DNA of 64,000 nucleotides. Origin: Amycolatopsis balhimycina FH 1894. Lineage in GTDB: Bacteria; Actinomycetota; Actinomycetes; Mycobacteriales; Pseudonocardiaceae. This document shows, one piece after another, positions 5,811 to 64,000 of this stretch (its first letter is position 1; every line of letters starts with the position of its first letter). The DNA is taken from NCBI RefSeq assembly GCF_000384295.1, contig NZ_KB913037.1, positions 4,660,868 to 4,724,867 of the forward strand. The letters run 5' to 3'. The notes below the pieces were generated by a model that was given only the letters and a program-made list of their open reading frames with translations, was not told where the DNA came from and made no database searches. Both the position numbers and the translations under genes were made by a program.

Positions 5811-6188
5811 GGCGTTCCTCCCCCGTCGTCGGTGCGGGCCGTGGGTGGCCCGGCTTCCACCGTCGCGGGCGGGGGCACGGCGGCACAACGGGCCGGACGG
5901 CCGGCTGTGGACAACCGGGGTGTTGTGGACAACTGCCGCCCAGGGACCGGCTCGCGGACCGGTTTTGTCGGTGGGCTGTGGCAGGCTCGCGCGCGCCCGC
6001 GACGCACCTGCGGCGGAAATGGCCGCGAAAACCCGCTTTCGACGATCTCGCCGCGTTGCCGAAACCCGGACCCGGCGCCCGAGAGAAAGGGGCAAAGGTA
6101 AACGGGAGGCAAGACGGCGGCCCCGGCGAGAGGCGCGCGAAAACGGGAATCAAAGCCGGGGCGAAGAAAAGCAAGGGGAAGGTAAGAG

Positions 6189-6224
6189 GGCGGCCCCCGC
6201 CAGGGGGGAGGGACGGGGGCCGCC
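6189..6224. promoter_or_regulatory. GC-rich perfect inverted repeat
   Basis: Arms of 11 bp (GGCGGCCCCCG and its complement) spaced by 14 nt. It sits about 380 bp upstream of ssd and 220 bp upstream of the HAD gene. It could be a leader or attenuator structure for either unit. Confidence 0.35.
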
Positions 6225-6434
6225 GTGGGTTCAGCCCCGGGGGGTCGGACTGAACCGGCCCGGTTGGACACCGGGCTCGTTCACTGTAACTCCGCCCGGC
6301 ACCGGTTCGCGCGCCGGGCGAGGCACACAGTTCGGTAACGGCACAGCGCGCCCGAAGTGCCTGCCTGTCATGGATTTTCCGCCCGCCGCGACGCGCGCGT
6401 GGTGGATCAACGGGACGCGCCTCGATCAAGCTTC

Positions 6435-49971: not shown

Positions 49972-50001
49972 AAGAGCCGGTGTCTTCGGACACCGGCTCT
50001 T
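49972..50001 (+). terminator. tRNA-Pro terminator
   Basis: 13-bp perfect stem AAGAGCCGGTGTC with complement around a TTCG tetraloop, followed by CTGGTTT. Confidence 0.92.
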
Positions 50002-50007
50002 CTGGTT

Positions 50008-50787
50008 TCAGCGGGTCGCCGTCACCTCGACCCAGCACTGGCTGAAATCACCGTCGCCGCCGCGGGTCCACACCAACGCCGACCGGGCCGCGCTCGCCAG
50101 CTGGTCGCGGTCGCGGCCGAACTCCGGGTCCGCGATCGCCTGGTCCAGGCGGGATTCCACGTACTTCGCCAGGTCCCGGTAGCTCATGTCCTCGCGGTAG
50201 CGGGCACGCGAAACCACCTCCGTGAAACCCGCCCGCGCGCACTCGTCCGCGATGTGACGGCCCGCGAACGGGTCGCCGCCCGCGCGACGGCGCAGCAGGT
50301 AGTGGCCACGCAGGGCCGCGTCGACGTTCGCCGTCTTCGGCCTCAGCCGCGCCTTGCTCCAGTCCGAAGTGGACAACGCCAGCCTGCCACCCGGCCGCAG
50401 GATCCGGCGCAGCTCCGCCAGTGCGTTCGCGGGACGGGAAAGGTGCTCGAACAACCCGTGGGAAAACGCCACGTCGACGCTCGCGTCGGCGAACGGCAGG
50501 TCGTACGCCGACGCCACCAGGAAGTCCACTGTGGACCTTCCGGCGCGGCGGGCGGCCGCGCGGGCCAGCGCCACCTGACCGGCGTCGAGGTCGACGCCCG
50601 CCACCCGCGACTCGGCGGCCAGGCCCAGGGTGATCGAGCCGGGACCGCAGCCCAGGTCGACCACCCACGTGCCCGGCCGGAACAGGGGCTGGGCGAACGT
50701 CGCGCGCTCCGCGGCCGTGCGCGCGGCCATCATCGAAACCGCGTCTCGCCCGTAGCCCGGCGCGTAACCCTCCAGCACCCCGCACAC
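50008..50787 (-). CDS. SAM-dependent methyltransferase
   Basis: 259 aa. Class I fold: VVDLGCGPGSITLGLA (motif I), AGVDLDAGQVALARAA (motif II), ASAYDLPFADASVDVAFSHG and LRRILRPGGRLALSTSDW. Methyltransf_11/25 type; acceptor unknown. Start at GTG 50787 or GTG 50778 (upstream of LEGYAPGY). Divergent from the S9 peptidase, 30 bp away. Confidence 0.85.
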   Translation of the reverse strand: MCGVLEGYAPGYGRDAVSMMAARTAAERATFAQPLFRPGTWVVDLGCGPGSITLGLAAESRVAGVDLDAGQVALARAAARRAGRSTVDFLVASAYDLPFADASVDVAFSHGLFEHLSRPANALAELRRILRPGGRLALSTSDWSKARLRPKTANVDAALRGHYLLRRRAGGDPFAGRHIADECARAGFTEVVSRARYREDMSYRDLAKYVESRLDQAIADPEFGRDRDQLASAARSALVWTRGGDGDFSQCWVEVTATR

Positions 50788-50817
50788 AGTACGGCCAGAA
50801 GGTGGCAGGATCGAGGG

Positions 50818-52668
50818 GTGAGCACGCAGTCAGCCAAGCAATATCCGCCCGCGGTGGTCCCGGACCGGCTGTTCGACGACGCCGAAGCCGAGAACCGCTG
50901 GCGCGCCCGCTTCCACGCCCCACGCATCTCCGTGCCCGAATGGGCCCGCGATGCCCCCGAAGCATGCGTCTACGCCTCCAACGCCAGCGGCGTCTGGGAG
51001 GTCTACGCCTGGAACCGCGCGACGGACGAGCACCGCCGCGTCACCGACCGGCCCAACGGCACCCTGCATGCCACGCCGTCGCCCGACGGCGAGTGGATCT
51101 GGTGGTTCGACGACACCGACGGCGACGAGTTCGGCTCCTGGGTCCGCGAGCCGTTCGCCGCGACCGAGGGCAGCGAGCCGGAGAAGGCCGTCCCGGACGT
51201 CCACGACGGCTACCAGGCCGGGCTCGAGATCGGCGCGAAGATCGTCGCGGTCGGCGTCTCTACCGACGACGGCAGCGAACTGTTCGCCCGCGTCGCGGGC
51301 GAGACGCACCGCTTCTACAGCCACCCGGACGACGCCGGCATCTCGTCGCTCTCCCGTGACGAAAGCCTGATCGCCATCTCGCACTCCGAGCACGGCGACT
51401 CGCGGCACCCCGCGCTGCGGGTGCTCGCGACCGACGGGTTCGAGACCGTCGCCGAGAAGTGGGACGGTGAGGGCAAGGGCCTCTCCGCACTCGAATTCTC
51501 CCCGCTGCCCGGCGACCAGCGGCTGCTGGTGCTGCACGAACGCCGCGGCCGCGAGGAGCTGCTCGTCTGGGACGTGCGGGCCGCCACCGAGACCGAAATC
51601 GAGCTGGACCTACCCGGCGAGGTCGTCGCGGGCTGGTACCCGGACGCGCGCGCCCTGCTGGTCGTCCACTTCCACGAGGGCCGCAGTTCGTTGTACCGCT
51701 ACGATCTCGACACGGCCGAGCTGTCCTCTGTGGACACTCCGGCCGGGCGGATCGGCGGTGCCGGCGTCCGTCCCGACGGGACGGTCGAGTACTCCTGGTC
51801 CAGCGCCGCCGAGCCGGCCGCGGTCCGGGCGCGGACGACCGACGGCACCGACGCGATCCTGCTCGAGCCGCCGGGTGAGCGGGCGCCGGGGTCGGAGCCG
51901 GTGACCGACGCGTTCGTCGAAGGCGTCGGCGGGCGGATCCACGCGCTCGTCTCGCGGCCTTCGGGCGCGCCGGACGGCCCGCTGCCCACGGTGTTCTCCC
52001 TGCACGGCGGCCCGCACGCGGCGGACGAGGACCGCTTCTCCGCCTACCGCGCGACCTGGCTCGACGCGGGGTTCGCCGTGGTCGAGGTCAACTACCGCGG
52101 CTCGACCGGCTACGGCTCGGCCTGGCGCGACGCCATCGAGGGCCGTCCCGGCCTGACCGAGCTGGAGGACGCCGCCGCCGTCCACGACTGGGCCGTCCAG
52201 AGTGGACTGAGCGACCCCGCGAAGTGCGTCGTGAACGGCGCTTCCTGGGGCGGCTACCTGTCTCTGCTCGCGCTCGGCACGCAGCCGTCGCGGTGGGCGG
52301 CGGGCGTCGCCGGGGTGCCGGTGGCGGACTACGTCGCCGCGTACGAGGACGAGATGGAGCAGCTGCGCTCGTTCGACCGCGGGATCTTCGGCGGCTCGCC
52401 GGAGGACGTGCCCGCGGTGTACCGGGAATGCTCGCCGATCACCTACGTCGACGCGGTCAAGGCGCCGGTGCTCGTGCTGGCCGGCGACAACGACCCGCGC
52501 TGCCCGATCCGGCAGATCGAGAACTACCTCGACCGCCTCGGCGGCCGTGACCTGCACCACGAGTTCTACCGCTACGACGCCGGCCACGGCTCGCTGGTGA
52601 TCGCCGAGACGATCAAGCAGACGTCGATCGAGGTCCACTTCGCGCTCCGGGCCCTCGGCCTGCGCTGA
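50818..52668 (+). CDS. S9 family peptidase (prolyl oligopeptidase type)
   Basis: 616 aa. A beta-propeller of about 370 residues (repeats such as HATPSPDGEWIWWFDD, RLLVLHERRGREELLVWDVR) precedes an alpha/beta hydrolase domain: SLHGGPHAADEDRFSAYRAT, catalytic Ser in NGASWGGYLSL, Asp in LAGDNDPRCPIRQ, and His in DAGHGSLV. Cytosolic, no signal peptide; acts on short peptides, often acylaminoacyl or Pro-containing. GTG 50818 has CAGGAT 6 nt before it, so it may be leaderless. Confidence 0.9.
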   Translation: MSTQSAKQYPPAVVPDRLFDDAEAENRWRARFHAPRISVPEWARDAPEACVYASNASGVWEVYAWNRATDEHRRVTDRPNGTLHATPSPDGEWIWWFDDTDGDEFGSWVREPFAATEGSEPEKAVPDVHDGYQAGLEIGAKIVAVGVSTDDGSELFARVAGETHRFYSHPDDAGISSLSRDESLIAISHSEHGDSRHPALRVLATDGFETVAEKWDGEGKGLSALEFSPLPGDQRLLVLHERRGREELLVWDVRAATETEIELDLPGEVVAGWYPDARALLVVHFHEGRSSLYRYDLDTAELSSVDTPAGRIGGAGVRPDGTVEYSWSSAAEPAAVRARTTDGTDAILLEPPGERAPGSEPVTDAFVEGVGGRIHALVSRPSGAPDGPLPTVFSLHGGPHAADEDRFSAYRATWLDAGFAVVEVNYRGSTGYGSAWRDAIEGRPGLTELEDAAAVHDWAVQSGLSDPAKCVVNGASWGGYLSLLALGTQPSRWAAGVAGVPVADYVAAYEDEMEQLRSFDRGIFGGSPEDVPAVYRECSPITYVDAVKAPVLVLAGDNDPRCPIRQIENYLDRLGGRDLHHEFYRYDAGHGSLVIAETIKQTSIEVHFALRALGLR

Positions 52669-52674
52669 CCCGCC

Positions 52675-52733
52675 AAGTCCGTGAAGGCCACCTTCAGGAA
52701 CTCTATGTTCCTGAAGGTGGCCTTCACGGACTT
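52675..52733. repeat. Perfect 27-bp inverted repeat (element C)
   Basis: Arms 52675-52701 and 52707-52733 are exactly complementary with a 5-nt loop (TCTAT). Each arm contains the palindrome TGAAGG-CCA-CCTTCA. It sits between convergent genes and touches the stop of the tautomerase gene. Likely a bidirectional terminator and the same family as element A. Confidence 0.92.
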
Positions 52734-52918
52734 CAGCGCTCGGAGTGCAGGACGCCTCCCGTGGCCCAGTGGTCCGCGCCGACCTCGACGAGCGTCACCT
52801 GGACGCCTTCCGGCTTGCCGCCGCAGGTGCGGACGAACGCGTCAGTCAGTTCCCGGACCAGGGCGCTCTTCTGGGCGGGCGTTCGGCCGGGGAACATGGC
52901 AACGCTGATCATCGGCAT
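52733..52918 (-). CDS. 4-oxalocrotonate tautomerase-family protein
   Basis: 61 aa, the typical length. It starts MPMISVAMFPGRTPAQKSAL with the catalytic Pro right after the initiator Met, then LVRELTDAFVRTCGGKPEGV. Tautomerases of this size ketonise enols; the substrate is unknown. The gene is leftward and 16 nt behind the last gene of the acyltransferase operon, so it may be part of that transcript. Confidence 0.85.
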   Translation of the reverse strand: MPMISVAMFPGRTPAQKSALVRELTDAFVRTCGGKPEGVQVTLVEVGADHWATGGVLHSER

Positions 52919-52934
52919 GGCGGGGCTCCTGCTG

Positions 52935-53963
52935 CTAGGCGTGACGCCGCGAAGCTAGCACCGGGACGGCCGCCGCGTACTGCGGGACGAGCCGCGCGCC
53001 GAGTGTCGCCTTCAGCTCGGCCATGCCCTTGCCGAACAGCACCGACGGCCGGCCGTTCGCCAGCGCCCACCGCACCGCTTCGCCGTAGAAGTGGAAGTAG
53101 AGGTTGGGCCGCCCGCCGTCCTCGCGTTCCACCGCGCCCCAGTGCCGGGCGATCGGGAGCCCGGGGTGGTCGAACAGGCTCCCCACCGCCAGCAGCCTGC
53201 CGGTGGCGGTGTCGTGGTACTCGACCACCGAGACGTCCGGCTGCCGCAGCAGGGCCGTCAGGTAGCCGACGAAGTGCGGCAGCGCGACGATCGGCACGTC
53301 ACGGTGCTTGCGTTCGTTGTGCCGCAGGACCTCCGCGACGGCGACCGGATCGGCCTCCTTGCCCGGGACGAGCCGCACCGCGATCGACGGGTCGGCGTCG
53401 ACGGTGCGGAAGATCTTGCGCAGGTTCTGCTTCCGCTTCCTGGCCAGTGACTGCATCCAGTCGTCGCGGGAGGCGAACCGGGCGACGTCGAGCACGGCGA
53501 CGTCCTCGGTGCGCCGGACCAGCCGCACCCGGCCGCCCGCCGCCGCCGGCTCGCCGAGCTGGCGGACCAGCATCGCGCGGAACCCGGGCCCGAGCTCGGC
53601 CCGCATCGCCGGGACGTACGTCTCGAGCAGGCGGCTCAACCCGCCGTCGGCACCGGCGTCCGCGAACCACCAGCCGGGCAGGGAACTGACGCCGGGCGCC
53701 CGGACGACCAGCCCGCCGAGCCGCCCGCGGCCCGTGCCCGCGAACCGGTACCGGCGGGTCCGGCCGGTCACCCACGCGGCGCCGACCACGCCCCGCGGTT
53801 CGCCGCCGTCCCGGAACACGGTGACCGGCTGCGGGGTCCGCGCGGCCCACGCCTGGGTGGCGAGGACCTCCCAGCTCCAGTCGGCCCGGAGCCCGGCCCG
53901 CTCCCGCAACGCCGTCCAGTACGCCGGTTCCGCGTCGTGGCGCGGGTCGAGGACGTCGATCAC
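52935..53963 (-). CDS. FemAB/BioF2-like acyltransferase 3
   Basis: 342 aa, GNAT-superfamily (PF13480-like). It begins VIDVLDPRHDAEPAYWTALR. The basic helix LARKRKQNLRKIFRTVDADP, the core LFDHPGLPIARHWGAVERED and the end GMAELKATLGARLVPQYAAA parallel the two genes upstream. This family moves acyl or aminoacyl groups onto amines or sugars, e.g. in capsule and wall assembly. GTG 53963 overlaps the previous stop (GTGA). Donor and acceptor unknown. Confidence 0.75.
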   Translation of the reverse strand: MIDVLDPRHDAEPAYWTALRERAGLRADWSWEVLATQAWAARTPQPVTVFRDGGEPRGVVGAAWVTGRTRRYRFAGTGRGRLGGLVVRAPGVSSLPGWWFADAGADGGLSRLLETYVPAMRAELGPGFRAMLVRQLGEPAAAGGRVRLVRRTEDVAVLDVARFASRDDWMQSLARKRKQNLRKIFRTVDADPSIAVRLVPGKEADPVAVAEVLRHNERKHRDVPIVALPHFVGYLTALLRQPDVSVVEYHDTATGRLLAVGSLFDHPGLPIARHWGAVEREDGGRPNLYFHFYGEAVRWALANGRPSVLFGKGMAELKATLGARLVPQYAAAVPVLASRRHA

Positions 53964-54985
53964 CACCGCGTCACCGGCCTCGGCACGACCACGCCGCGCA
54001 GCGGGCTCGGCGTGAACCCCAGTGACTCCTTGAGCGGGACGACTCCACCGCCCAGCGACAGGAACTTCCGGTTGTGCTCGATCATGTGCCGCACCCCGCC
54101 CGCGATGATGCCGAAGTAGAGGTGCTTCGGCCGTCCCTCGGCGAGTGGCCGCGCGGCCCAGTGCTGCTGCAGCGGCATCACGGGGTGGTCCAGCAGGTTG
54201 GTGAAAGCCAGCAGCCGCCCCCGATCGTCGTGGTAGGTCGTGGTGACGACGTCCGGGCGGCGGACGAGCTCGCCGAGGTAAGCGGCGGTGACGGGCCCGC
54301 GTGGGTCGAACTTCAGCGGCCCCTTGGCTTCGCGGTGGGCGCGCAGCATCGCCGCCAGCTCGGCCGGGTCGAGGTCGTCGCGGGCGGGGCCGGTGCGGAC
54401 CACCACGCCGGGGTCGGCGGCGATCTTGCGGAGCTGGCCGCGCAGGCTCGACCGCCGTTTCCTGCTCAGGGACGCGAGCCAGTCGTCGAGTTCGGTGAAG
54501 GTGTTCTCCAGCACCAGGTCCGGCTGGACCTCGCGGACCTGCCTGCCCCGCCCGGACACCAGGCCGACGACGTCCGGGGCGATCCCGCGGTACACGACGC
54601 CGAGGCAGCCCGGCCCGGTGAACCGGCAGACCGCCCGTTCGAACCGCCGCAGGATTTCGCGGCACGCGGCCGCGTCCAGCTCTTCGGCGAACAGCCAAGC
54701 GGGGTGACACGGCGCCCAGGCGTGCCGCACTTCCAGCCAGCGTGGCCCCCACCGGGCCGGCCCACGCCACCGGCCGGGACCGCACAGCATCGCGAGCACC
54801 GCGCCGACCAGGGTGTCCCCTTCGGTGACCACCGTCAGCAGGTCCGGGCTGCGGGAGCGTTCCGACTCCGTGCGCAGGAGGCCGTAGTCCCAGGTCAGCG
54901 GGGCCTGCTGCGCCCGCAGGAACGCGGCCCAGCCGGCGGGCTCGGGATCCGTGCGCGGATCGAGCACCCGGACGGTCCAGGTCAT
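53960..54985 (-). CDS. FemAB/BioF2-like acyltransferase 2
   Basis: 341 aa, paralogue of its neighbours: VRVLDPRTDPEPAGWAAFLR at the start, LSRKRRSSLRGQLRKIAADP in the middle, FTNLLDHPVMPLQQHWAARP in the acceptor domain, and PLKESLGFTPSPLRGVVV at the end. ATG 54985 overlaps the stop of copy 1 (ATGA). No signal peptide, so it acts in the cytoplasm, on a lipid-linked or nucleotide-linked intermediate by inference. Confidence 0.75.
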   Translation of the reverse strand: MTWTVRVLDPRTDPEPAGWAAFLRAQQAPLTWDYGLLRTESERSRSPDLLTVVTEGDTLVGAVLAMLCGPGRWRGPARWGPRWLEVRHAWAPCHPAWLFAEELDAAACREILRRFERAVCRFTGPGCLGVVYRGIAPDVVGLVSGRGRQVREVQPDLVLENTFTELDDWLASLSRKRRSSLRGQLRKIAADPGVVVRTGPARDDLDPAELAAMLRAHREAKGPLKFDPRGPVTAAYLGELVRRPDVVTTTYHDDRGRLLAFTNLLDHPVMPLQQHWAARPLAEGRPKHLYFGIIAGGVRHMIEHNRKFLSLGGGVVPLKESLGFTPSPLRGVVVPRPVTRW

Positions 54986-56016
54986 CGGCCCAGCACCGGT
55001 CGCGGCACCGCGGCCGTGTAGATGGTGCGGGTCCGGAAGCCCAGCTGCTCCTTGAGCTCGACCATGCCACGCCCGGCGGACAGCTCCTTCGCCCCGCGCT
55101 CGGTGAGCAACCGCACCGCGAGGACGTAGGAGTCGAAGTACAGGCCCTGCGGACCGCGCTCGTCCAGCGGCAGCGCCGCCCAGTGCTGCATGGTCGGGCT
55201 GTCCGGGTGGTCGAGCAGCGTGTTCACCGCGAGCAGCCTGCCTTCGGCACTGGTGTAAGTCAGCGTGTGCACGTCCGGCCGCAGGAGGAACCGGTGCAGA
55301 AAACCCGCCGACGGCAGCGTGCGCGTGTCCATCTTCAGCGCTCCGTAGCGCGCGCGGTGCTCCCGGATGAGCCCGGCGACGACGGCGCTGTCGACGTCGT
55401 CGCGGCCCGGGCCGCTTCGCACCACCAGGTCCGGGTTCTCCTCGATCCGCCGGCGGCGGCGCCGCAGCGCGGACCGCCGGGCGCTCGGGAGCGAGGCGAA
55501 CCAGTCCTCTTCGGACTCGAACCGGTTCTCCAGCACGGTCGTCGGGTCCACGCGCTTGACCACGCGGCCGCGGCCGCCGATCCCGGTGGCCAGGTCCTCG
55601 CCGATCGAGCGGTAGACCACGCCGAGCAGGCCCGGCCCGAGGTGGCGGCCCAGCTGCCGTTCGAACTCCCGCACCAGCGCGTGGCGGCCGGAAAAGCCCG
55701 GGGCGAACACGATCCCGGGGAACCCGCTCAGCCACGGCTGGTACACCTCGGCCCAGAACGGCCCGAGCGGCCGCCGCCGTCCCGGCACGGGCGCGAACCG
55801 CGGCGACAACCGGGGACGGCAGAGCATGACGGACAGGCCGGCGACGAGCTCGTCGCCCTCGGCCGCGACGACCAGCAGCTGCGGGTTGCGGGCGCCCCAG
55901 GCTTCGAGGCCCATCACCTCGTAGTCCCACACCGGGTGCAGCCGCGCGTCGCGGGAGAACCCGGCCCAGCCGGCGGGTGCCGGATCCACGCGGGGATCGT
56001 GGAACTCGAACTTCAT
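54982..56016 (-). CDS. FemAB/BioF2-like acyltransferase 1
   Basis: 344 aa, first of the three paralogues: FHDPRVDPAPAGWAGFSRDA, SARRSALRRRRRRIEENPDL, VNTLLDHPDSPTMQHWAALP and MVELKEQLGFRTRTIYTAAV. The basic helix is unusually Arg-rich (five consecutive Arg). ATG 56016 overlaps the stop of the preceding gene. Divergence among the three copies is high although the layout is constant, so the duplications are old. Confidence 0.75.
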   Translation of the reverse strand: MKFEFHDPRVDPAPAGWAGFSRDARLHPVWDYEVMGLEAWGARNPQLLVVAAEGDELVAGLSVMLCRPRLSPRFAPVPGRRRPLGPFWAEVYQPWLSGFPGIVFAPGFSGRHALVREFERQLGRHLGPGLLGVVYRSIGEDLATGIGGRGRVVKRVDPTTVLENRFESEEDWFASLPSARRSALRRRRRRIEENPDLVVRSGPGRDDVDSAVVAGLIREHRARYGALKMDTRTLPSAGFLHRFLLRPDVHTLTYTSAEGRLLAVNTLLDHPDSPTMQHWAALPLDERGPQGLYFDSYVLAVRLLTERGAKELSAGRGMVELKEQLGFRTRTIYTAAVPRPVLGR

Positions 56017-56789
56017 GTCAGGACGACCGGGGTGCCGTGCCGCGGGCAGGACGCGATTTCGCCGTGGACGCCGCCGGCCGGGATGACGTCCACGAACCGC
56101 GGGGAATCCTGGCGCAGCAACGTGAACGCGAGCCCGCCGGACGTCCGCCGCGCGTAGACGTGCGGCCAGTCGAGGTGCCACCGGCCGCAGTTGCCCAGCG
56201 CGCCGAGGTAGCCGAGCGCGGGGTCGTGGAGCACGCCGTACGGACCGGCGTCCACTGAGTCCAGTTCGCGGTGCGGCACGGCTTCGACGCGGTGCGCGAG
56301 GTCGTCGGGCACCGCGGCGGTGAACGTGGTGAGTGCCTTGTCGTCGCCGACCGCGAGCACCCGGTGGCCTCGCCGCAGGACGGCCGTCACCTCGCCGAGC
56401 ACCGCCGCGGACGGCGTGTCCGGGTCGGTGACACAGCCGTGCACGCCCTTCGGCAGGTCGGCCGGCGGGCGCAGACCGTCCGGTCCGAGAAGGACGACGA
56501 GGCTGTCGCGCCCGGGCACCCGGGCCGTGCGCAGCACCCGCCCGAGCCCGCGGCCGGGCTCGGTCCGCTGGGTGCCGCCCGCCAGCGGGACCAGGTCGAC
56601 GACCTGGCGCAGGGCCTCGGCGAGCGGGGCCGCGCCGCCGTCGGTCCCGGTGCGGCCGGGCACCAGGACCGGATCTTCACGACCGTCGAGCGCCCAGCGC
56701 TCGCGGTAGAACGGCACCGTGGCGAACGCCGACCGCACCGCGCGCAAATAGGCGGCGCGCCAAAGCACCGCCACCCCCGGATTCCCCAT
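56013..56789 (-). CDS. Unknown protein heading the acyltransferase operon
   Basis: 258 aa from ATG 56789 (MGNPGVAVLWRAAYLRAVRS). The first 30 residues (YLRAVRSAFATVPFYRERWA) resemble the start of PaaK/CapK-type adenylating enzymes, but the AMP-binding motifs are absent: no TSGTTG and no GxTE. The rest includes LVVLLGPDGLRPPADLPKGV and RRTSGGLAFTLLRQDSPRFV. It could be a remnant or a scaffold protein. It overlaps copy 1 by ATGA and is the first gene of the leftward operon. Confidence 0.6.
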   Translation of the reverse strand: MGNPGVAVLWRAAYLRAVRSAFATVPFYRERWALDGREDPVLVPGRTGTDGGAAPLAEALRQVVDLVPLAGGTQRTEPGRGLGRVLRTARVPGRDSLVVLLGPDGLRPPADLPKGVHGCVTDPDTPSAAVLGEVTAVLRRGHRVLAVGDDKALTTFTAAVPDDLAHRVEAVPHRELDSVDAGPYGVLHDPALGYLGALGNCGRWHLDWPHVYARRTSGGLAFTLLRQDSPRFVDVIPAGGVHGEIASCPRHGTPVVLT

Positions 56790-57048
56790 GGCGCAGCAGT
56801 CTGTGTCACCCGGCCCGGCTTGGGAAGCGGTCCCGAGGAAGAACACGCCGAATGCCGTAGCAACCCGACCTCCTCCCTGGGCTGAAAGGACGAATTCCGG
56901 TCTTTGCCGTCCCCAAACCAAAGGTTTTCTGCTTATAACTCGCACGTCGCACAGCTTTATCGGATCCAGGTGGGGGATTCATGAGGAGTAATACCACGGT
57001 CGGTGACCGTGCGGACACAAGACCGCGTCCACGGCCTTGGTCCACCCG
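56790..57048. promoter_or_regulatory. Shared promoter region of two facing operons
   Basis: 259 bp, clearly AT-richer than its surroundings near 56900-56960. TTATAA at 56933-56938 can act as a -10 on either strand. Two facing operons start from it, so a common regulator is plausible. There is a GAGGAG motif at 56982-56987 too far from the rightward start to be its ribosome site. Confidence 0.45.
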
Positions 57049-58059
57049 ATGACCAGTACTTTCCCCGGACCCGGCCAAGGTGGACTCAGCGTAGTCATTC
57101 CGTGCTTCAACGAAGTCGACAACGTCGAACCGTCCTATCGGGAAATTATCAACGAACTAGGTCACTACTCGCTTGAACTGTTTTACGTCGATGACGGGAG
57201 CAGCGACGGAACACTCGAGAAGATCACTGCCCTCGCCGCGGCCGACCCGCGCGTGCGGTATGTGTCCTTTTCGCGCAACTTCGGTTTCGAGGCCGCGTTC
57301 TCGGCCGGCTACCGGTACGCGACGAAGCCGTGGATCCTGCACATCGACGCCGACCAGCAGTTCCCCGCCGCGGAGGCGGAGAAGCTGATCGCGGCCGCCG
57401 CACACGGCCACGACGCGGTCTTCGGCGTCCGCACGAACCGCCAGGATCCGCGGCTGCGGCGGTGGGGCACCGCCGCGTTCCACTTCCTCGGCCGCCGCGT
57501 GCTGCGCATCGAGATCCCGCAGGGCGCCACGGCGTTCCGGCTGGTCCGCGCCGAACTGGCCCGCAAGATCGTCGACCTGAAGCTCGGCACGCCGTACTTC
57601 CTGGCCACGGTCCCGCGGCTGACCAGCCGGTACACCTGCGTCCCGGTCGCACACCGGGCTCGCGAGCGCGGCGAGTCCAAAGTGGGCATGGGCTTCCTGA
57701 CCTCGCACGCCATCGAGCTGTTCGTCGGCTTCACCCGCAGGCTGACGACGGCGGCGTCCGCGACGGCCCTGTTCGCCGCCGGCCTCGGCGTCCTGGCGGC
57801 CGGCACGGCGGCGTTCGGGCTGCTCGGGGCGAGCGCCTCGGCCGCGGTGCTGTTCGCGCTGCTCTCCGTGCTGCTGCTGGTCCTCTCCCTGACCGTGCGC
57901 TACCTCGTCGTGGTCGGCGCCGGGCAGCCGAGGCCGCGCCAGTTCTACGTCCGGGAAGCGAACGTCGTCGTCGACGCCGAAGACCGGCTCTTCACGGCCG
58001 AGGACCAGGGGGGTCCGCGGCTCATCGATGTCCATCTGGGGAAAGGCGTTTCAGCGTGA
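57049..58059 (+). CDS. GT2 glycosyltransferase, polyprenyl-phosphate type
   Basis: 336 aa. LSVVIPCFNEVDNVEPSYRE, FYVDDGSSDGTLEKI and HIDADQQFP (DxD) define family GT2; FSRNFGFEAAFSAGYRYA fits the ArnC/GtrB/DPM1 group that transfers a sugar to undecaprenyl phosphate. Two C-terminal helices (ALFAAGLGVLAAGTAAFGLL, AAVLFALLSVLLLVLSLTV) anchor it to the membrane. ATG 57049 has no strong ribosome site. Its stop overlaps the next start as GTGA. Confidence 0.85.
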   Translation: MTSTFPGPGQGGLSVVIPCFNEVDNVEPSYREIINELGHYSLELFYVDDGSSDGTLEKITALAAADPRVRYVSFSRNFGFEAAFSAGYRYATKPWILHIDADQQFPAAEAEKLIAAAAHGHDAVFGVRTNRQDPRLRRWGTAAFHFLGRRVLRIEIPQGATAFRLVRAELARKIVDLKLGTPYFLATVPRLTSRYTCVPVAHRARERGESKVGMGFLTSHAIELFVGFTRRLTTAASATALFAAGLGVLAAGTAAFGLLGASASAAVLFALLSVLLLVLSLTVRYLVVVGAGQPRPRQFYVREANVVVDAEDRLFTAEDQGGPRLIDVHLGKGVSA

Positions 58060-59297
58060 CGAGTTCCAAAAAGGACCCGACGAGAACCCTGGTGATCCTG
58101 GGGGGCGCGGACGGTTCGGTCAGCACCTACGAGCGGGCGAGGGAGCTGGGGTTCCGCACGATCTGCGTCGACGTCCGGCCCGGCGCGCCCGCGGTGGCCT
58201 GTGCGGACGAGTTCCTGCAGGTCAGCGTCCGCGCGCCGGAGCAGATCGCGGCGGCGCTCGACGGGCGCCGCGACCTGGCCGGCGTGCTGTGCCCGGCCAG
58301 CGACGTCGGGTTGCCGACGCTGGCCTGGCTGACCCGGCACTGGGGCATGCCGGATCCGCTGCCGGAGTACGCGGTGAAGGCGTCGACCGACAAGTCCGTG
58401 TTCCGCGCGCTGTGTGACCACCTCGGACTGCCGAGCTACCGCAGTGTCGGCGGCCGGCCGGGGCCGGAACTGGTGGCCGCCGCCCAGCAGCTGCGCTTCC
58501 CCACGCTGGTCAAGCCGGTCGACTCGTCCGGCAGCCGGGGTGTCGTCTCGTGCTCCGGCCCCGGCCGGCTGACCGCGGCGTTCACCGAGTCCCTCGCGTT
58601 CTCGCCCTCGGGCCGCCTGGTGGTGGAAGAACACCTCGACGGCGCGCACTTCACCATCGAGGCACTGGTCGTCGACGGCCGGATCGTCTTCCACGCCGTC
58701 ACCGACCGCACGCTGACGCCGCCGCCGTTCTTCGTGACGTCGTCGCACCTGCTGCCCGGCGAGCTGCCGGCGGACGTCGAGCTGCAGCTGATCGAAGCGC
58801 TCGACCTGATCTGCACCGAGCTCGGCTACCGCACCGGCCCGCTCACCCTGGACGCCGTCCTCGGCCGGGACGGGCGGCTCTACCTCATCGAGATGGGTGC
58901 CCGGATGGGCGGCAACGGCCTGGCGGAGGCGATCGAGCACTGCTACGGCGCCGACCTGATCGCCGCCGGGATCGCGGCCGCCACCGGCGGCGAGGTGCGG
59001 CTGGACCTGCACGAGCCGAAGCCGACCCTGGTGCACATTCTCGCCTCCGACCGCGGCGGCCACCTGTCCCGTGTGGACGGTGTCGACGACGTGCGCTCGC
59101 TGCCCGGCCTGGTCGGGCTGCACCTGTTCGCCGAGGAGGGTTCCTTCGTCCGGCCCTACGAGCAGGCCGGCTACAAGCTGGGTTACGTCGTGCTCACCGC
59201 CGATTCGGTGCCCGAGCTGCTCGCCGTGGAGAACGCCGTGCGCGGCACGCTGAAGTTCCTGCTCCACGAGCAGGACATGGCGGTACCCCTGCCGTGA
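58056..59297 (+). CDS. ATP-grasp ligase
   Basis: 413 aa. Pre-ATP domain (LVILGGADGSVSTYERAREL), the ATP lid VKPVDSSGSRGVVSCS, LVVEEHLDGAHFTIEALVVD and the metal site LTLDAVLGRDGRLYLIEMGA then RMGGNG. The PurK/biotin-carboxylase-like fold forms amide or carbamoyl-type bonds with carboxylates and ATP. Here it probably joins an amino acid or similar group to a sugar. GTG 58056 overlaps the GT2 stop; its stop overlaps the flippase start. Confidence 0.85.
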   Translation: MTSSKKDPTRTLVILGGADGSVSTYERARELGFRTICVDVRPGAPAVACADEFLQVSVRAPEQIAAALDGRRDLAGVLCPASDVGLPTLAWLTRHWGMPDPLPEYAVKASTDKSVFRALCDHLGLPSYRSVGGRPGPELVAAAQQLRFPTLVKPVDSSGSRGVVSCSGPGRLTAAFTESLAFSPSGRLVVEEHLDGAHFTIEALVVDGRIVFHAVTDRTLTPPPFFVTSSHLLPGELPADVELQLIEALDLICTELGYRTGPLTLDAVLGRDGRLYLIEMGARMGGNGLAEAIEHCYGADLIAAGIAAATGGEVRLDLHEPKPTLVHILASDRGGHLSRVDGVDDVRSLPGLVGLHLFAEEGSFVRPYEQAGYKLGYVVLTADSVPELLAVENAVRGTLKFLLHEQDMAVPLP

Positions 59298-60541
59298 CCG
59301 TGCCGTCCACCGCGCCGGCGGTCGCGGCCTCGCCGCGGCCGGCGGTCGTGCTCCGGCTGCTCGCCGGCCGGGGCGCGTTCCGGTTGTCGGTCCAGCTGAT
59401 GGGGCTGGTCCTGATCACGGCGTGGGGTGCCCACGACTACGGGCGGTTCGCCAACGCGCTCGGCCTGATGGGCTGGCTGAACTTCGTGCCGTCCGCGGTG
59501 GAGAAGTCCGCGCTGAAGTGCCTGCCGCGGCTGCGGCTGACCCGGGACGCCGTCGCGGCGCTCGCGGTCCGGCTCGCCGCGGCGCCGGTGCTCGCGGTGC
59601 TGGCCGCGATGGTCGTCGCGCTGGTGGCGGCCCCGCGGTCGGACGCGGCGCTCTACCTGACGGCGGCGGCCTGGTCGATCTGCGGCGGACTGCTGATGAC
59701 CGTGTCCGGGCTGCACCGGTTGCGCGAAAAGTCCACTTTGGACGCTCTCGCGTTCACCGCAGGCGCGGTCGTGGTCGGCATCGCCACCTGCGTGACGTGG
59801 GCGGTGCGCTGGTCCCCCGAGACGCACCTGGTGCTGCTGCTCGGCGGGCTCCTCGTGCTCCTCGGCGCTTCGGTGGCCCTGCTGCCGAGACCGTGGCTGC
59901 GCGGCGGCGGGGTCCCCGGGCACCGGTTGCTGCCCGCGTTCGGGCGCAGCACCGTCCTGCTCGGCGCCACCGAGCTGCTCGACGTGATCTCGACATCGGT
60001 GGTGTTCGCCGTGCTCGCGCTGTCCGGGCGGACCACCGACAGCGGCCCGTTCTACCTGGCACTGCTCGTTTCCAGCGCGTTCTGCTCGCTGCTGTTCTAC
60101 CAGCTCAGGCTGCACCAGCCGGCGGCGTCGCGGCGGATGCGCGGCACCGGCGCGGCCGCCGGGCGCGCGCGGGCGGCGGACCTGCTGCGGTTCGTCGAAC
60201 GGGCCGGGATCGTGTTCGTGGTGCTGCTGGGCGCCGGTCTCGCCGTGCCCGGTACCCGGACGTTGCTCACCGCCGAAGACGCCTACCTCGCCCTCGGGGT
60301 GCTCGTGCTCGTCGAAACGACGTTGTACGCGATCGGCCTGTACGCGGGCTTCCTCATCGAAAACACCAACAGCAAGGTGCTGACGCTGACGTCGGGCACC
60401 GCCGTCGTGTCACTGGCCGCCACCGTCGTGGCCGCGGTGCTGCTCGTCCCCCCGCTCGGCCCGGTGGGCGGCTTCGCCGCGCTCGTCTTCGCCATCGCGG
60501 TCAAGGCGGCAGTCCTGCGACGCCTGCTCCGCCGCCACTGA
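59294..60541 (+). CDS. MOP-superfamily flippase-like membrane protein
   Basis: 415 aa, about twelve helices with no large loops, e.g. LSVQLMGLVLITAWGAHDYG, FANALGLMGWLNFVPSAVEK, FGRSTVLLGATELLDVISTS. Wzx/MurJ-like topology and N-terminal sequence pattern suggest it flips the lipid-linked product. No PF domain signature is decisive. GTG 59294 overlaps the ATP-grasp stop. The gap to the next gene is 26 nt. Confidence 0.75.
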   Translation: MTVPSTAPAVAASPRPAVVLRLLAGRGAFRLSVQLMGLVLITAWGAHDYGRFANALGLMGWLNFVPSAVEKSALKCLPRLRLTRDAVAALAVRLAAAPVLAVLAAMVVALVAAPRSDAALYLTAAAWSICGGLLMTVSGLHRLREKSTLDALAFTAGAVVVGIATCVTWAVRWSPETHLVLLLGGLLVLLGASVALLPRPWLRGGGVPGHRLLPAFGRSTVLLGATELLDVISTSVVFAVLALSGRTTDSGPFYLALLVSSAFCSLLFYQLRLHQPAASRRMRGTGAAAGRARAADLLRFVERAGIVFVVLLGAGLAVPGTRTLLTAEDAYLALGVLVLVETTLYAIGLYAGFLIENTNSKVLTLTSGTAVVSLAATVVAAVLLVPPLGPVGGFAALVFAIAVKAAVLRRLLRRH

Positions 60542-60567
60542 AGTTTGACTCACCGGGAGAGAAAGTC

Positions 60568-62385
60568 ATGTACGTACTGGGCATCAGCAGGGTCCACGAC
60601 TCGGCGGCGGCACTCGTGCGCGACGGCGAGATCGTCGCGTTCGCCGAAGAGGAACGCTTCACGCGCGTGAAGCACGACGGCGGCTTCCCCGCCGAAGCCA
60701 TCAAGTTCTGCCTGGAGCGCGGCGGGATCACCCTGGCCGACGTCGACCACGTCGCCTACTACTGGCAGCGCTGGAAGGAAGGGATCCACGCGGCCAAGGT
60801 GTTCGCGCGGTACTTCCCCGGCACCCTGGACGTCTTCCGCAACGCCAACGGCGACGAGGGCGGCAAGTCCGCGGGGATGCTGGACACCTTCAAGACCGGC
60901 GGCGGCACGGGCAGCGACGACTACCACGTCGGCGGCGCGGTGCTCGCGCACCTCAAGCGGTCCTACACGCTGGAGAAGGACGTCAAGGAAGCCGCCGGCT
61001 GGACCGGCCCGACGAAGTTCAAGACGCACCTGGTCGACCACCACCGCGCGCACGCGGCCAGCGGGTACTTCATCTCGCCGTGGGACGAGTCGGCCGTGCT
61101 CACCTTCGACGGCATCGGCAGCGACGGCACGGCGACCTACCTCGCGCACGGCCGCGGCGACAAGATCGTCGACCTGCGGCGGATCAAGTTCCCGCACTCG
61201 CTCGGCGCGATGTACGCCGGCGTCACCGGCTACCTCGGCTTCTACCCGACCCGCGACGAGGGCAAGATCATGGGCCTCGCGCCGTTCGGCGAGGACACCT
61301 ACGTCGACGCGTTCAAGCAGCTGATCCACCTGAACGACGACGGCGGCTTCGAACTCGACCTGAGCTGGTTCGGCCACCACCGCACCGGCAAGCACGTGAT
61401 GTCCGCGAAGTTCACCGACACCTTCGGCCCGGCGCGGCCGAAGACCCGCGTCACGGCGGAGAACCCGGTGCCGCAGCACTACCGCGACATCGCCTACGCG
61501 CTGCAGGTGACGCTCGAGGAGGCGGGTCTGCACCTGGCGCGGTGGCTGCAGCGCGAGACCGGCTCGAAGCGGCTTTGCGTGGCCGGCGGTGTCGCGCTGA
61601 ACAGCGTGATGAACGGCCGGATCCTGCTGGAGACGCCGTTCGAGGACTTCTTCGCCCAGCCCGCGGCCGCCGACGACGGCTGCGCGCTCGGTGCCGCGCT
61701 CGAGGTGTCGGTCGGCAAGTACGGCAGGCCGCGGCCGCGGGACGGCTACACCTACACCGGCCCGGACTACACCGAAGCCGAGATGGAGCAGGCGCTGCAG
61801 GACGCCGGCGTCGAGTACACGCGCGTCGAGGACATCGCCGCGCACACCGCGGCGAAGGTGGCCGAGGGGCGGATCGTCGGCTGGGTGCAGGGCCGGATGG
61901 AATGCGGCCCGCGGGCGCTGGGGAACCGGTCGCTGGTCGCCGACCCGCGCGACCCGGAGTCGAAGACGCGGATGAACGAGAAGGTCAAGCACCGCGAGGC
62001 GTTCCGGCCGTTCGCGCCGTCGTGCCTGGTGGAGCGCGCGGGCGAGTACTTCGTCAGCGACTACCCGTCGCCGGTGATGCTGCTGGTGTTCGACGTGCTG
62101 CCGCACAAGCGCGACGAGGTCCCGGCGATCACCCACGTCGACGGCACCGCGCGCGTGCAGACGGTGAGCGAGGAGGACAATCCGCTGTACTGGCGGATGA
62201 TCAGCGAGTTCGACCGGCTCACCGGCGTGCCGATGGTCGTCAACACGTCGTTCAACGACAACAACGAGCCGATCGTCGCGAGCCCGCAGGACGCCATCGC
62301 CTGCTACCTGAAGACCGACGTCGACGCGCTGGCCCTCGGCCCGTTCTGGGCGGAGAAGCCGCGGCTGGAGGAAGACACCGAATGA
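60568..62385 (+). CDS. Carbamoyltransferase (NodU/CmcH family)
   Basis: 605 aa. The N-terminal Kae1-like ATPase domain has YVLGISRVHDSAAALVRDGE, the His pair VDHHRAHAASGYF, LTFDGIGSDGTATYLA and DEGKIMGLAPFGE; the C-terminal YrdC-like domain has VQGRMECGPRALGNRSLVAD, NEKVKHREAFRPFAPSCL and VVNTSFNDNNEPI. It transfers a carbamoyl group from carbamoyl phosphate to a sugar or alcohol hydroxyl. GGGAGAGAAAG precedes ATG 60568. It is the best-defined catalytic function of the operon and implies a carbamoylated product. Confidence 0.93.
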   Translation: MYVLGISRVHDSAAALVRDGEIVAFAEEERFTRVKHDGGFPAEAIKFCLERGGITLADVDHVAYYWQRWKEGIHAAKVFARYFPGTLDVFRNANGDEGGKSAGMLDTFKTGGGTGSDDYHVGGAVLAHLKRSYTLEKDVKEAAGWTGPTKFKTHLVDHHRAHAASGYFISPWDESAVLTFDGIGSDGTATYLAHGRGDKIVDLRRIKFPHSLGAMYAGVTGYLGFYPTRDEGKIMGLAPFGEDTYVDAFKQLIHLNDDGGFELDLSWFGHHRTGKHVMSAKFTDTFGPARPKTRVTAENPVPQHYRDIAYALQVTLEEAGLHLARWLQRETGSKRLCVAGGVALNSVMNGRILLETPFEDFFAQPAAADDGCALGAALEVSVGKYGRPRPRDGYTYTGPDYTEAEMEQALQDAGVEYTRVEDIAAHTAAKVAEGRIVGWVQGRMECGPRALGNRSLVADPRDPESKTRMNEKVKHREAFRPFAPSCLVERAGEYFVSDYPSPVMLLVFDVLPHKRDEVPAITHVDGTARVQTVSEEDNPLYWRMISEFDRLTGVPMVVNTSFNDNNEPIVASPQDAIACYLKTDVDALALGPFWAEKPRLEEDTE

Positions 62386-63092
62386 CGACGACGTCCGCTC
62401 CCGCGCCGGTCACCCCGCGCGGGAGCTGGGTGGGGGCCCTGTACCGGCAGCGGCGGTGGCTGTGGCTGGTTGCGGCCGTGCCGGCCGTGGTGACCGCTCT
62501 GCTGATCATGGTGGTCCTGCCGCCGGACCAGACGCTGGACAGCATCGGCGAATGGGCGTTCAAGCTGTGCCCGTTCGTCTTCTCGGTGCTCACGGTGTCG
62601 CTGTTCCCGCGCGGCCGGTTCGGTCCCGCGTTGATCGTGTTCGCCGTTTTCGTCTACATGTCCTATTTGGACACGGAACTGGTGCTGCGGATCCAGGACT
62701 TCGCGCGGTCTCCCGACGACTTCCAGCCGGTGTACCAGTTCGAGCTGTTCGTCACGACGTTCATCGTGCTGTTCGCGCTGCTGGCCTACCGCCTCGGCGG
62801 CGGCCGCACGGCCAACGTGCTCAAGACCGGCGTCGCGGCGATCCTCGTGGTCATCTCGGGCGTCAACGACCTGACGTTCTGGCTGCTCAACGACGTCTGG
62901 TCGGCGGGCGCGAAGCCGGCCGAGCTGAAGTGGGCGTCGCACATGATCGTGTTCCTCGGCGGGCCGCCGAGCGTGCCGGCCGCGGTGGTGTTCATGGCGG
63001 TGCACCTGGTGCTGGCCGCGGTCGTCGTCGCGCTGCCGGTCGGCCGGTGGGTTTCGGTCAGAGTCCCCGGTTCACCGACTGCAGCTTCGTGA
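62382..63092 (+). CDS. Unknown membrane protein closing the operon
   Basis: 236 aa, four or five helices (WLWLVAAVPAVVTALLIMVV; FVFSVLTVSLFPRGRFGPAL; FELFVTTFIVLFALLAYRLG; AAILVVISGVNDLTFWLLND; AAVVFMAVHLVLAAVVVALP). No family recognised. ATG 62382 overlaps the carbamoyltransferase stop (ATGA), so it is tightly tied to it. The last 35 nt overlap the opposing TIGR03085-type gene. Confidence 0.7.
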   Translation: MTTTSAPAPVTPRGSWVGALYRQRRWLWLVAAVPAVVTALLIMVVLPPDQTLDSIGEWAFKLCPFVFSVLTVSLFPRGRFGPALIVFAVFVYMSYLDTELVLRIQDFARSPDDFQPVYQFELFVTTFIVLFALLAYRLGGGRTANVLKTGVAAILVVISGVNDLTFWLLNDVWSAGAKPAELKWASHMIVFLGGPPSVPAAVVFMAVHLVLAAVVVALPVGRWVSVRVPGSPTAAS

Positions 63093-63684
63093 CGGCGGTC
63101 GCGTCGCCTTCGAACTCGAGGCGGACGGCGTCGCGGCCGAAGACGAACAGCAGCAGGTCCACCGGCTCGCCGACGATCGTGACCGGGTCGGGCCCGGTCT
63201 TGACCGCGGCCTCTTGACCGGTCTTGGTCCGGAGGGTGACGCCGACCGGCGCCTTGCGCAGGTTGAGCTTGGCGGCCTGCTTGACCGACTTCCAGGCGGC
63301 GGCGTCCCGGGTCGGGTCGGCGGCCCGCGGCTGCCAGTCCGGCTGCGCGCGCCGGACGTCTTCGTGGTGCACGAGGAACTCGGCGGCGTTGGTCAGCTCG
63401 TCGAGCGGGCCGATCGCGGTCGGCCAGAACTTCGACGGCCCGGTCCGCACCTGCTCGACCAGGCTCGCCCACGGCTTGGCGGCGTAGCGGTCCTGGACCT
63501 TCCGGGTGTACCCGGCGAGCGCGGGCACGAGGATCCCCGGCGCGGCGTCCGGCCGGTGCTCGCGCACGACGAGGTGAGCGGCGAGATCCCGCGTGGTCCA
63601 GCCCTCGCACAACGTCGGCGCGTCGGGCCCGAGGTCATCGAAAAGCGCGCTCAGCGCCCGGCGTTCGTCAGCAGCGACACCCAT
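63058..63684 (-). CDS. TIGR03085-type mycothiol-dependent-like protein
   Basis: 208 aa. RRALSALFDDLGPDAPTLCE, GWTTRDLAAHLVVREHRPDA and LVHHEDVRRAQPDWQPR are the DinB/mycothiol-maleylpyruvate-isomerase-like pattern with the His ligands of this actinobacterial family. Its exact role is unknown. Convergent with the membrane protein gene and overlapping its 3' end by 35 nt. Confidence 0.85.
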   Translation of the reverse strand: MGVAADERRALSALFDDLGPDAPTLCEGWTTRDLAAHLVVREHRPDAAPGILVPALAGYTRKVQDRYAAKPWASLVEQVRTGPSKFWPTAIGPLDELTNAAEFLVHHEDVRRAQPDWQPRAADPTRDAAAWKSVKQAAKLNLRKAPVGVTLRTKTGQEAAVKTGPDPVTIVGEPVDLLLFVFGRDAVRLEFEGDATAVTKLQSVNRGL

Positions 63685-63732
63685 GAGGACGACGTTACCC
63701 GGCGGTAGACCCCGCTGGCGACGAGATGTGAG

Positions 63733-64000
63733 CTAGTGGTGGAACGCCGTCACCTTCGAAGTGTCCTTCGGACGGCCGCCGAGCTGCTCCAGTTCCGGGA
63801 GCACCCGGGCCAGGTCCGCCAGCAGGAGGTCCGCGAGGTCGTGGGTGAAGCCGTTGCGGACCACGATCCGCAGCACCGCCAGATCGGCCCGGTTCTCCGG
63901 GAACGTGTACGCGGGCACCAGCCAGCCCCGCTCGCGCAGGCGCCGGGACACGTCGAAGACGTCGAAACCCGCGTCGGCGCGGGTCGTGAACGCGAACACC
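63733..64000 (-). CDS. Glutamate decarboxylase-like C-terminus (partial)
   Basis: Last 88 codons and a stop; the 5' end lies to the right of the window. VFAFTTRADAGFDVFDVSRR, LRERGWLVPAYTFPENRADL, and LRIVVRNGFTHDLADLLLAD match the C-terminal domain of PLP-dependent glutamate decarboxylase (GadB type), and it ends SKVTAFHH, similar to the GadB tail that closes the active site at neutral pH. The PLP lysine is outside the window. Confidence 0.8.
   Translation of the reverse strand, partial: VFAFTTRADAGFDVFDVSRRLRERGWLVPAYTFPENRADLAVLRIVVRNGFTHDLADLLLADLARVLPELEQLGGRPKDTSKVTAFHH

Follow-up and report, generated by a model that had tools for sequence, protein, structure and literature searches.

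What do nine tightly packed genes in two facing operons make, and do they belong together at all? The genes lie at positions 52935-63092 of a 64,000-nt stretch of the Amycolatopsis balhimycina FH 1894 chromosome (the window), which is located at 4.66-4.72 Mb in a 10.86-Mb single-contig genome (G000). The minus-strand operon encodes a protein here called U and three tandem Fem-like acyltransferases (fem1, fem2 and fem3); the plus-strand operon encodes a family 2 glycosyltransferase (GT2), an ATP-grasp ligase, a flippase-like membrane protein, a carbamoyltransferase and a small membrane protein (mem). An initial annotation had described the locus as a surface-glycan assembly and decoration system, and its coordinates, its count of nine genes in two facing operons and its ATGA/GTGA couplings were all verified in the sequence. 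The findings below are consistent with a self-contained, transplantable pathway in which a decorated lipid-linked sugar is made, acylated, carbamoylated and flipped, a reading that we regard as evenly balanced.

Recurrence and empty sites of the block

Searching a single genome of each species with a U profile yielded 38 loci, whose gene content was scored by tblastn with the proteins of the window. Twenty-seven of these loci (L004-L027, L030, L035 and L039, the last with U split in two pieces) were complete, containing U, at least two fem genes, GT2, the ATP-grasp ligase, the flippase-like gene, the carbamoyltransferase and mem. In all 27, U and the fem genes are on one strand and the others are on the opposite strand, in the order of the window, and the complete loci occupy at least six different chromosomal neighbourhoods (judged from nine listed loci plus the window's own clade). 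L028 (5052-13852) is of the complete type except that no flippase match was found. In a Kribbella locus (L040), where the matches are broken by frameshifts, the ATP-grasp, flippase, carbamoyltransferase, mem, U and fem3 genes are all on one strand, with no GT2 match. The question raised by the initial annotation of whether the nine genes stay adjacent, or whether their two halves are separable, is thus answered largely in favour of a unit, since both halves are kept in 27 of 38 loci and genes of the two share a strand in Kribbella.

Eight loci from Actinokineospora and Labedaea (L029, L032-L034, L036-L038 and L041) had no carbamoyltransferase match within the stretches fetched, which suggests that carbamoylation is optional to the module. 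A second U-like match was present in seven of the eight (all but L029), an epimerase gene lies upstream of GT2 in both loci examined by Pfam (L038 and L029), and no ATP-grasp gene was seen in L033 up to the end of the fetched stretch. L031 (3-11808) contains only U and fem1, beside genes for a nonribosomal peptide synthetase (NRPS), MbtH, an ATP-binding cassette transporter, an ATP-grasp enzyme and aspartate decarboxylase. The U-fem pair stands there without the other half, so the U-fem part is modular. L031 itself is a possible unexplored metabolite cluster. In an Actinophytocola metagenome-assembled genome (L064:10890-15089), an extra second ATP-grasp gene, two fem1-type genes and a second U were observed beside a complete locus.

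The grouping goes far beyond chance: of 160 family genomes, 24 have U, and every one of the 23 with mem is among them (hypergeometric 7e-27, shared ancestry ignored); the exception, G204, has a weak U match and no mem. A U match lies within 8 kb of mem on the same contig in 23 of 23 cases, although in G431 this match is in two pieces and the best U match is on another contig. In genome G014, mem gives a strong match on one contig and a weaker one on another, and a flippase match is found only on the latter. The block is rare outside the family. The order sample (397 genomes) contained 20 with mem, 19 of them from this family. The genome under study is included in three further counts: among the 14 same-genus genomes of the order sample, 7 had mem; among 396 from the phylum, 4 did (two only at about 1e-4); and among 394 from the class, 2 had the flippase-like protein. 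Nonomuraea, Actinomadura and Plantactinospora give protein matches, which indicates that the genome samples miss some occurrences.

The approximately 10,000-base block comes and goes, by gain or loss, as one unit at two chromosomal sites. In the close relative G282 (L051), window positions 50000-52922 and 63060-64000 lie 8 bp apart by blastn, the S9 peptidase gene is 93% identical and mem is missing. The absent stretch (52923-63059; 10,137 bp) comprises the nine genes except for the final 33 nt of mem (63060-63092), which belong to the target site and lie antisense to the last part of the adjacent gene, placing the junction at 63059/63060. The S9 peptidase gene and the gene at 63.1-63.7 kb are within 0.4 kb of each other in eight of nine other Amycolatopsis genomes tested (not G330), and in two of those eight (G069 and G076) the block is found elsewhere, between HemW-like and TetR-like genes (named by eye). 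These two genes are separated by at most 161 bp in G278, G168 and G055, by 1.5 kb in G000 and by approximately 1 kb in G282 and G350, and are on different contigs in G118. Likewise, at this site, used by a second Amycolatopsis clade, the sequences bordering the A. keratiniphila block (L009, 3731 and 13947) are directly adjacent in L071 and separated by 144 bp in L069 and 65 bp in L070. The view that the locus is foreign to its surroundings is supported. The empty sites lack both halves together. No recombinase was recognized among the nine genes, and neither telling repeats in the flanks nor foreign composition was found.

Predicted functions of the encoded proteins

Pfam agrees with the earlier labels for GT2, the ATP-grasp ligase and the carbamoyltransferase and gives weak support to the Fem-like proteins as members of the GNAT group, while domain searches with Pfam and NCBIfam gave no support for U, the flippase-like protein or mem. 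GT2 (57049-58059, plus strand, 336 amino acids [aa]; PF00535, 2.8e-31) is similar to the solved structures of sll0501 (5ekp, 1e-22), which we take to be GtrB, and ArnC (9bhc, 2.9e-22). Together with two transmembrane (TM) segments predicted from hydropathy, this similarity and the GT2 domain assign the protein to the GtrB/ArnC polyprenyl-phosphate type; NCBIfam equivalog cut-offs were not reached. The ATP-grasp enzyme (58056-59297, plus strand, 413 aa) matches ATP-grasp_4 (PF13535, 45.8 bits) and the L-amino acid ligase C-terminal domain LAL_C2 (PF18603, 55.8 bits), both above cut-off, as well as the structures 4dim (9e-21) and 3vot (BL00235, 5.3e-18). It is L-amino-acid-ligase-like, with amino acids as candidate substrates. 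GT2 and the ATP-grasp ligase form one open frame, a fusion, in all 10 orientalis-clade loci.

The carbamoyltransferase (60568-62385, plus strand, 605 aa) scores above cut-off for both its N domain (PF02543, 202.7 bits) and its C domain (PF16861, 237.2 bits). It matches GdmN (9e-102), with NovN and TobZ matched as well, and its HDSAA, HH-x-AHA and GPRALG stretches and the C-terminal VNTSFNDNNEPIV stretch align to GdmN. By homology it is a NodU/CmcH-family O-carbamoyltransferase, predicted to carbamoylate a hydroxyl. A second NodU/CmcH carbamoyltransferase gene, 41-49% identical and in two pieces, was observed outside the locus (G000:C1:10130902-10131864).

All three putative acyltransferases are on the minus strand and were previously called FemAB/BioF2-like. 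The label holds to differing degrees: fem2 (53960-54985, 341 aa) is at the PF13480 cut-off (22.1 bits versus 22), fem1 (54982-56016, 344 aa) is below it (19.4 bits) and fem3 (52935-53966, 343 aa) alone has no Pfam match, while of 27 family members aligned, 12 have a PF13480 match and 6 a FemAB_like match at E 0.1 or better. A quick maximum-likelihood tree of 127 of the 133 proteins found (six shorter than 240 aa were excluded) resolved four groups, fem1, fem1b, fem2 and fem3, with fem1 and fem2 of the window each in its own clade; these are old paralogues retained differently between species. Long branches call for caution with this tree, in which L061 and L066 are placed with little certainty. 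The fem3 gene is present in 27 of 27 complete loci. The others vary, with fem1b missing from the window, L004 and L008, fem2 from L005 and L007, and fem1 from L009-L012 and L059; four fem matches occur in L006, L013-L019, L021-L027, L030, L060 and L062, and other sets in L020, L028, L035, L039 and the carbamoyltransferase-free loci. This differing retention of paralogues suggests variable decoration.

U (56013-56789, minus strand, 258 aa) had been listed as an unknown protein, and domain searches indeed gave no family; its predicted fold, in contrast, was recognizable as that of the PaaK N-domain. The fold match stops at residue 319-326 of the 422-434-residue chains of PaaK1, PaaK2, AjiA1, NatL2 and BT_0428, leaving U without the C-terminal lid domain, and the ATP-binding P-loop motif was found in 0 of 69 aligned members. 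Residues C201, H205, C248 and H251 are invariant. On this model, U is a shortened PaaK/CapK-type adenylate-ligase fold that is apparently non-adenylating. In A. vastitatis, the nearest named relative found, U is 95% identical.

The flippase-like protein (59294-60541, plus strand, 415 aa) is a polytopic membrane protein presumed to be of the MOP/Wzx type. The earlier MOP label agrees with the automatic names of some relatives (O-antigen/teichoic acid export protein), on which this presumed identity rests, but MOP-superfamily Pfam models match 0 of 19 members. Hydropathy predicts 10 TM segments in the window protein and 11 on average in the family, compared with 12-14 in the MOP superfamily. The mem protein (62382-63092, plus strand, 236 aa) has six predicted TM segments and, as previously stated, is still without a family, having neither a Pfam match for the window protein nor a significant PDB fold match. 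A mem homologue accompanies a related enzyme set in two loci outside the family (L061 and L066, described below), which supports a specific role for mem.

From these homologies we infer the chemistry, donors, step order and acceptor of the proposed pathway as follows. GT2 would move a sugar from a housekeeping nucleotide-sugar onto polyprenyl phosphate at the cytoplasmic face. The ATP-grasp ligase would then activate an amino acid or other carboxylate as an acyl phosphate and couple it, on the lipid-bound product, to an amino group on the sugar or on a residue added before. The tandem Fem-like transferases might contribute an additional acyl or aminoacyl group each; U, a PaaK derivative that would not adenylate, could be their partner and hold either the substrate or the transferase. 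The carbamoyltransferase would cap a hydroxyl using carbamoyl phosphate, the MOP-like protein would flip the completed unit, and mem may aid flipping or hand the unit to its final acceptor, probably a wall or surface glycan.

Gene coupling, intergenic region and adjacent features

Read off the sequence, ATGA overlaps join U to fem1, fem1 to fem2, and the carbamoyltransferase gene to mem, and GTGA overlaps join GT2 to the ATP-grasp gene, the latter to the flippase-like gene and, if the second of two GTGs is used, fem2 to fem3. The sole non-overlapping junction is the 26-bp gap between the flippase-like and carbamoyltransferase genes. The operons diverge from an intergenic region at 56790-57048, in which an alignment of 11 orthologous regions identified conserved blocks such as CTGAA.GGA and TGC.TATAAC. 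A 259-bp promoter region had been proposed here; the length is right, but a leader open reading frame inside the gap had been overlooked, and a sigma-70-type site was looked for in the region and none was found. The leader (56981-57052, plus strand, 23 codons) follows a strong ribosome-binding block, GGGGGATTC, and its stop overlaps the ATG of GT2. Leaders of 20-24 codons were present in 20 of 24 sources scanned, including 16 of 16 that are named Amycolatopsis or are the window itself, and absent in L018, L028, L035 and L039; shuffling of the window's gap produced such a leader in 110 of 5000 shuffles. The peptide sequence varies between genera, so its translation or coupling, rather than the peptide, may matter.

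Two further features were observed in the window. A 6C RNA (RF01066, 63.8 bits) lies at 6185-6259 on the minus strand. A perfect 27-nt inverted repeat with arms 5 nt apart (52675-52733) directly follows the S9 peptidase gene and is probably its terminator.

Alternative explanations and related systems

Several observations weigh against a pathway of the kind proposed. No GT-C transferase, ligase or polymerase was recognized in the block. The flippase-like family lacks MOP matches, and its profile gave no useful match to the Polysacc_synt protein of L061. Comparison of the U profile with CapK-type proteins gives a weak match. The Fem proteins are without a credible PDB relative by sequence, which leaves their use of aminoacyl-tRNA unsupported. 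A carbamoyltransferase match is missing from the fetched stretches of L031 and of the eight Actinokineospora and Labedaea loci among the 38, and these gaps, with the missing flippase match in L028, imply that not every step is obligatory. Additionally, the presence of U-fem beside an NRPS in L031, and of a halogenase in L066, suggests a metabolite rather than a structural glycan. L066 (1504-13566, from another family of the order) encodes a HalD-type halogenase (PF23169, 5e-100, HWG motif) on one strand with GT2, ATP-grasp, mem, CapK-type, flippase-like (profile E 2e-49), epimerase and two more CapK-type genes; a fem-like gene is approximately 2 kb away on the opposite strand. Its three CapK-type proteins are longer than U and carry TSGS[ST]G, in contrast to the U family. 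In L061, which comes from a different family of the phylum, genes for a Polysacc_synt flippase, FemAB_like, GNAT and ATP-grasp proteins and a mem homologue lie side by side.

It is possible, if doubtful, that the block encodes a small secreted specialized metabolite: an amino-acylated, carbamoylated sugar assembled while attached to a lipid carrier and then released from the cell. Amino acids are the substrates of HalD, and its occurrence beside the same module in L066 favours this idea, as do the NRPS, MbtH, ATP-grasp and aspartate decarboxylase genes by the U-fem pair of L031, the patchy, island-like presence of the block in the genus (mem in half of the genomes) and the fact that GdmN, NovN and TobZ, the relatives of the carbamoyltransferase, belong to antibiotic pathways. 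However, a free metabolite does not usually involve a membrane polyprenyl-phosphate glycosyltransferase, the nine genes include no recognized regulator or resistance gene, and no HalD-like or NRPS gene was seen by eye near the nine complete loci listed, the other complete loci being unchecked. The surface glycan originally proposed is a candidate product, but a secreted metabolite of the amino-acyl glycolipid kind is almost as good a fit. An unlikely alternative is a remnant of a typical capsule, O-antigen or teichoic-acid locus with the remaining genes elsewhere. Such loci commonly include flippase, GT2 and Fem-like genes, some related flippases are named for O-antigen/teichoic acid export, and the divergent L061 has a Polysacc_synt flippase. 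Against this, the single GT2 is of the monophosphate-lipid type, no polymerase is recognizable, and the same gene set recurs in 27 loci with no further glycan gene common to the nine listed neighbourhoods (by eye), so the block looks complete as it is. That two unrelated operons merely stand back to back would agree with the two transcription directions and with the lone U-fem pair of L031, but as a general statement it is rejected, and almost certainly wrong, given the 27 of 38 loci that keep both halves, the single-strand arrangement in Kribbella and the empty sites that lack both. Returning to the decorated lipid-linked sugar, the homologies and the co-retention in 27 of 38 loci fit the lipid-linked sugar synthesis, carbamoylation, acylation and export first suggested for this enzyme set, and the remark that nucleotide-sugar genes and a polymerase are lacking holds, as none were recognized among the nine.

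Comparison with known systems revealed partial similarities. Pathways of the GtrB/ArnC type (O-antigen glucosylation and modification of lipid A with 4-amino-4-deoxy-L-arabinose) use GtrA or ArnEF plus a GT-C transferase. The block resembles them in its GT2, which matches sll0501 and ArnC and has two TM segments, and in that the sugar would be attached to a lipid monophosphate inside the cell and then flipped; it differs in its larger flippase-like gene, its ATP-grasp, Fem-like and carbamoyltransferase genes and the lack of a recognized GT-C gene. The streptothricin, moenomycin and tobramycin pathways produce carbamoylated amino-sugar or glycolipid antibiotics and share with the block a NodU/CmcH carbamoyltransferase, here TobZ-like, but no scaffold-building, resistance or nucleotide-sugar gene was recognized in the block. 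A Wzx/Wzy capsule or O-antigen locus has a polymerase and several glycosyltransferases; the nine genes include a single GT2, and none of them matches a polymerase. ATP-grasp/GNAT amidoligase systems, which Iyer is said to have described in 2009, are similar in domain mix. The parts of PMC12419801 consulted cite these systems, in which ATP-grasp and acetyltransferase-type domains are joined to acyl-CoA-ligase folds, and a comparable nine-gene set was not found in those parts. As far as covered in the sections consulted, an exopolysaccharide cluster of Rubrivivax gelatinosus with a PEP-CTERM-associated FemAB also brings CapK-type and FemAB-type genes together (PMC3684757); wza, wzx, wzy and several glycosyltransferase genes are present there, whereas the block has a shortened CapK-type U and no recognizable polymerase. 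The literature search found nothing on this locus.

A broader proposal, which we advance tentatively and with more doubt than belief, is that these loci represent an undescribed class of genomic island with a decorate-on-lipid pathway. A GT2-ATP-grasp machine would produce an amino-acylated polyprenyl-phosphate sugar, and a bank of Fem-like transferases that varies between species would act on it with U, an ATP-less adenylate-ligase relic, as their dedicated partner; carbamoylation and flipping would then yield a strain-variable glycolipid. Sister clusters would use halogenated amino acids (HalD) or longer CapK-type ligases instead. A decorated lipid-linked sugar pathway of this kind would provide a compact route, transferable and open to testing, to a lipid-linked sugar bearing amino-acyl and carbamoyl groups in antibiotic-producing actinomycetes, and would pair an apparently non-adenylating PaaK-type protein with Fem-like transferases. 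The natural empty sites, the GT2-ATP-grasp fusion and the species-specific Fem sets would serve as ready comparisons for its chemistry, and the related HalD and NRPS clusters may point to unexplored metabolites.

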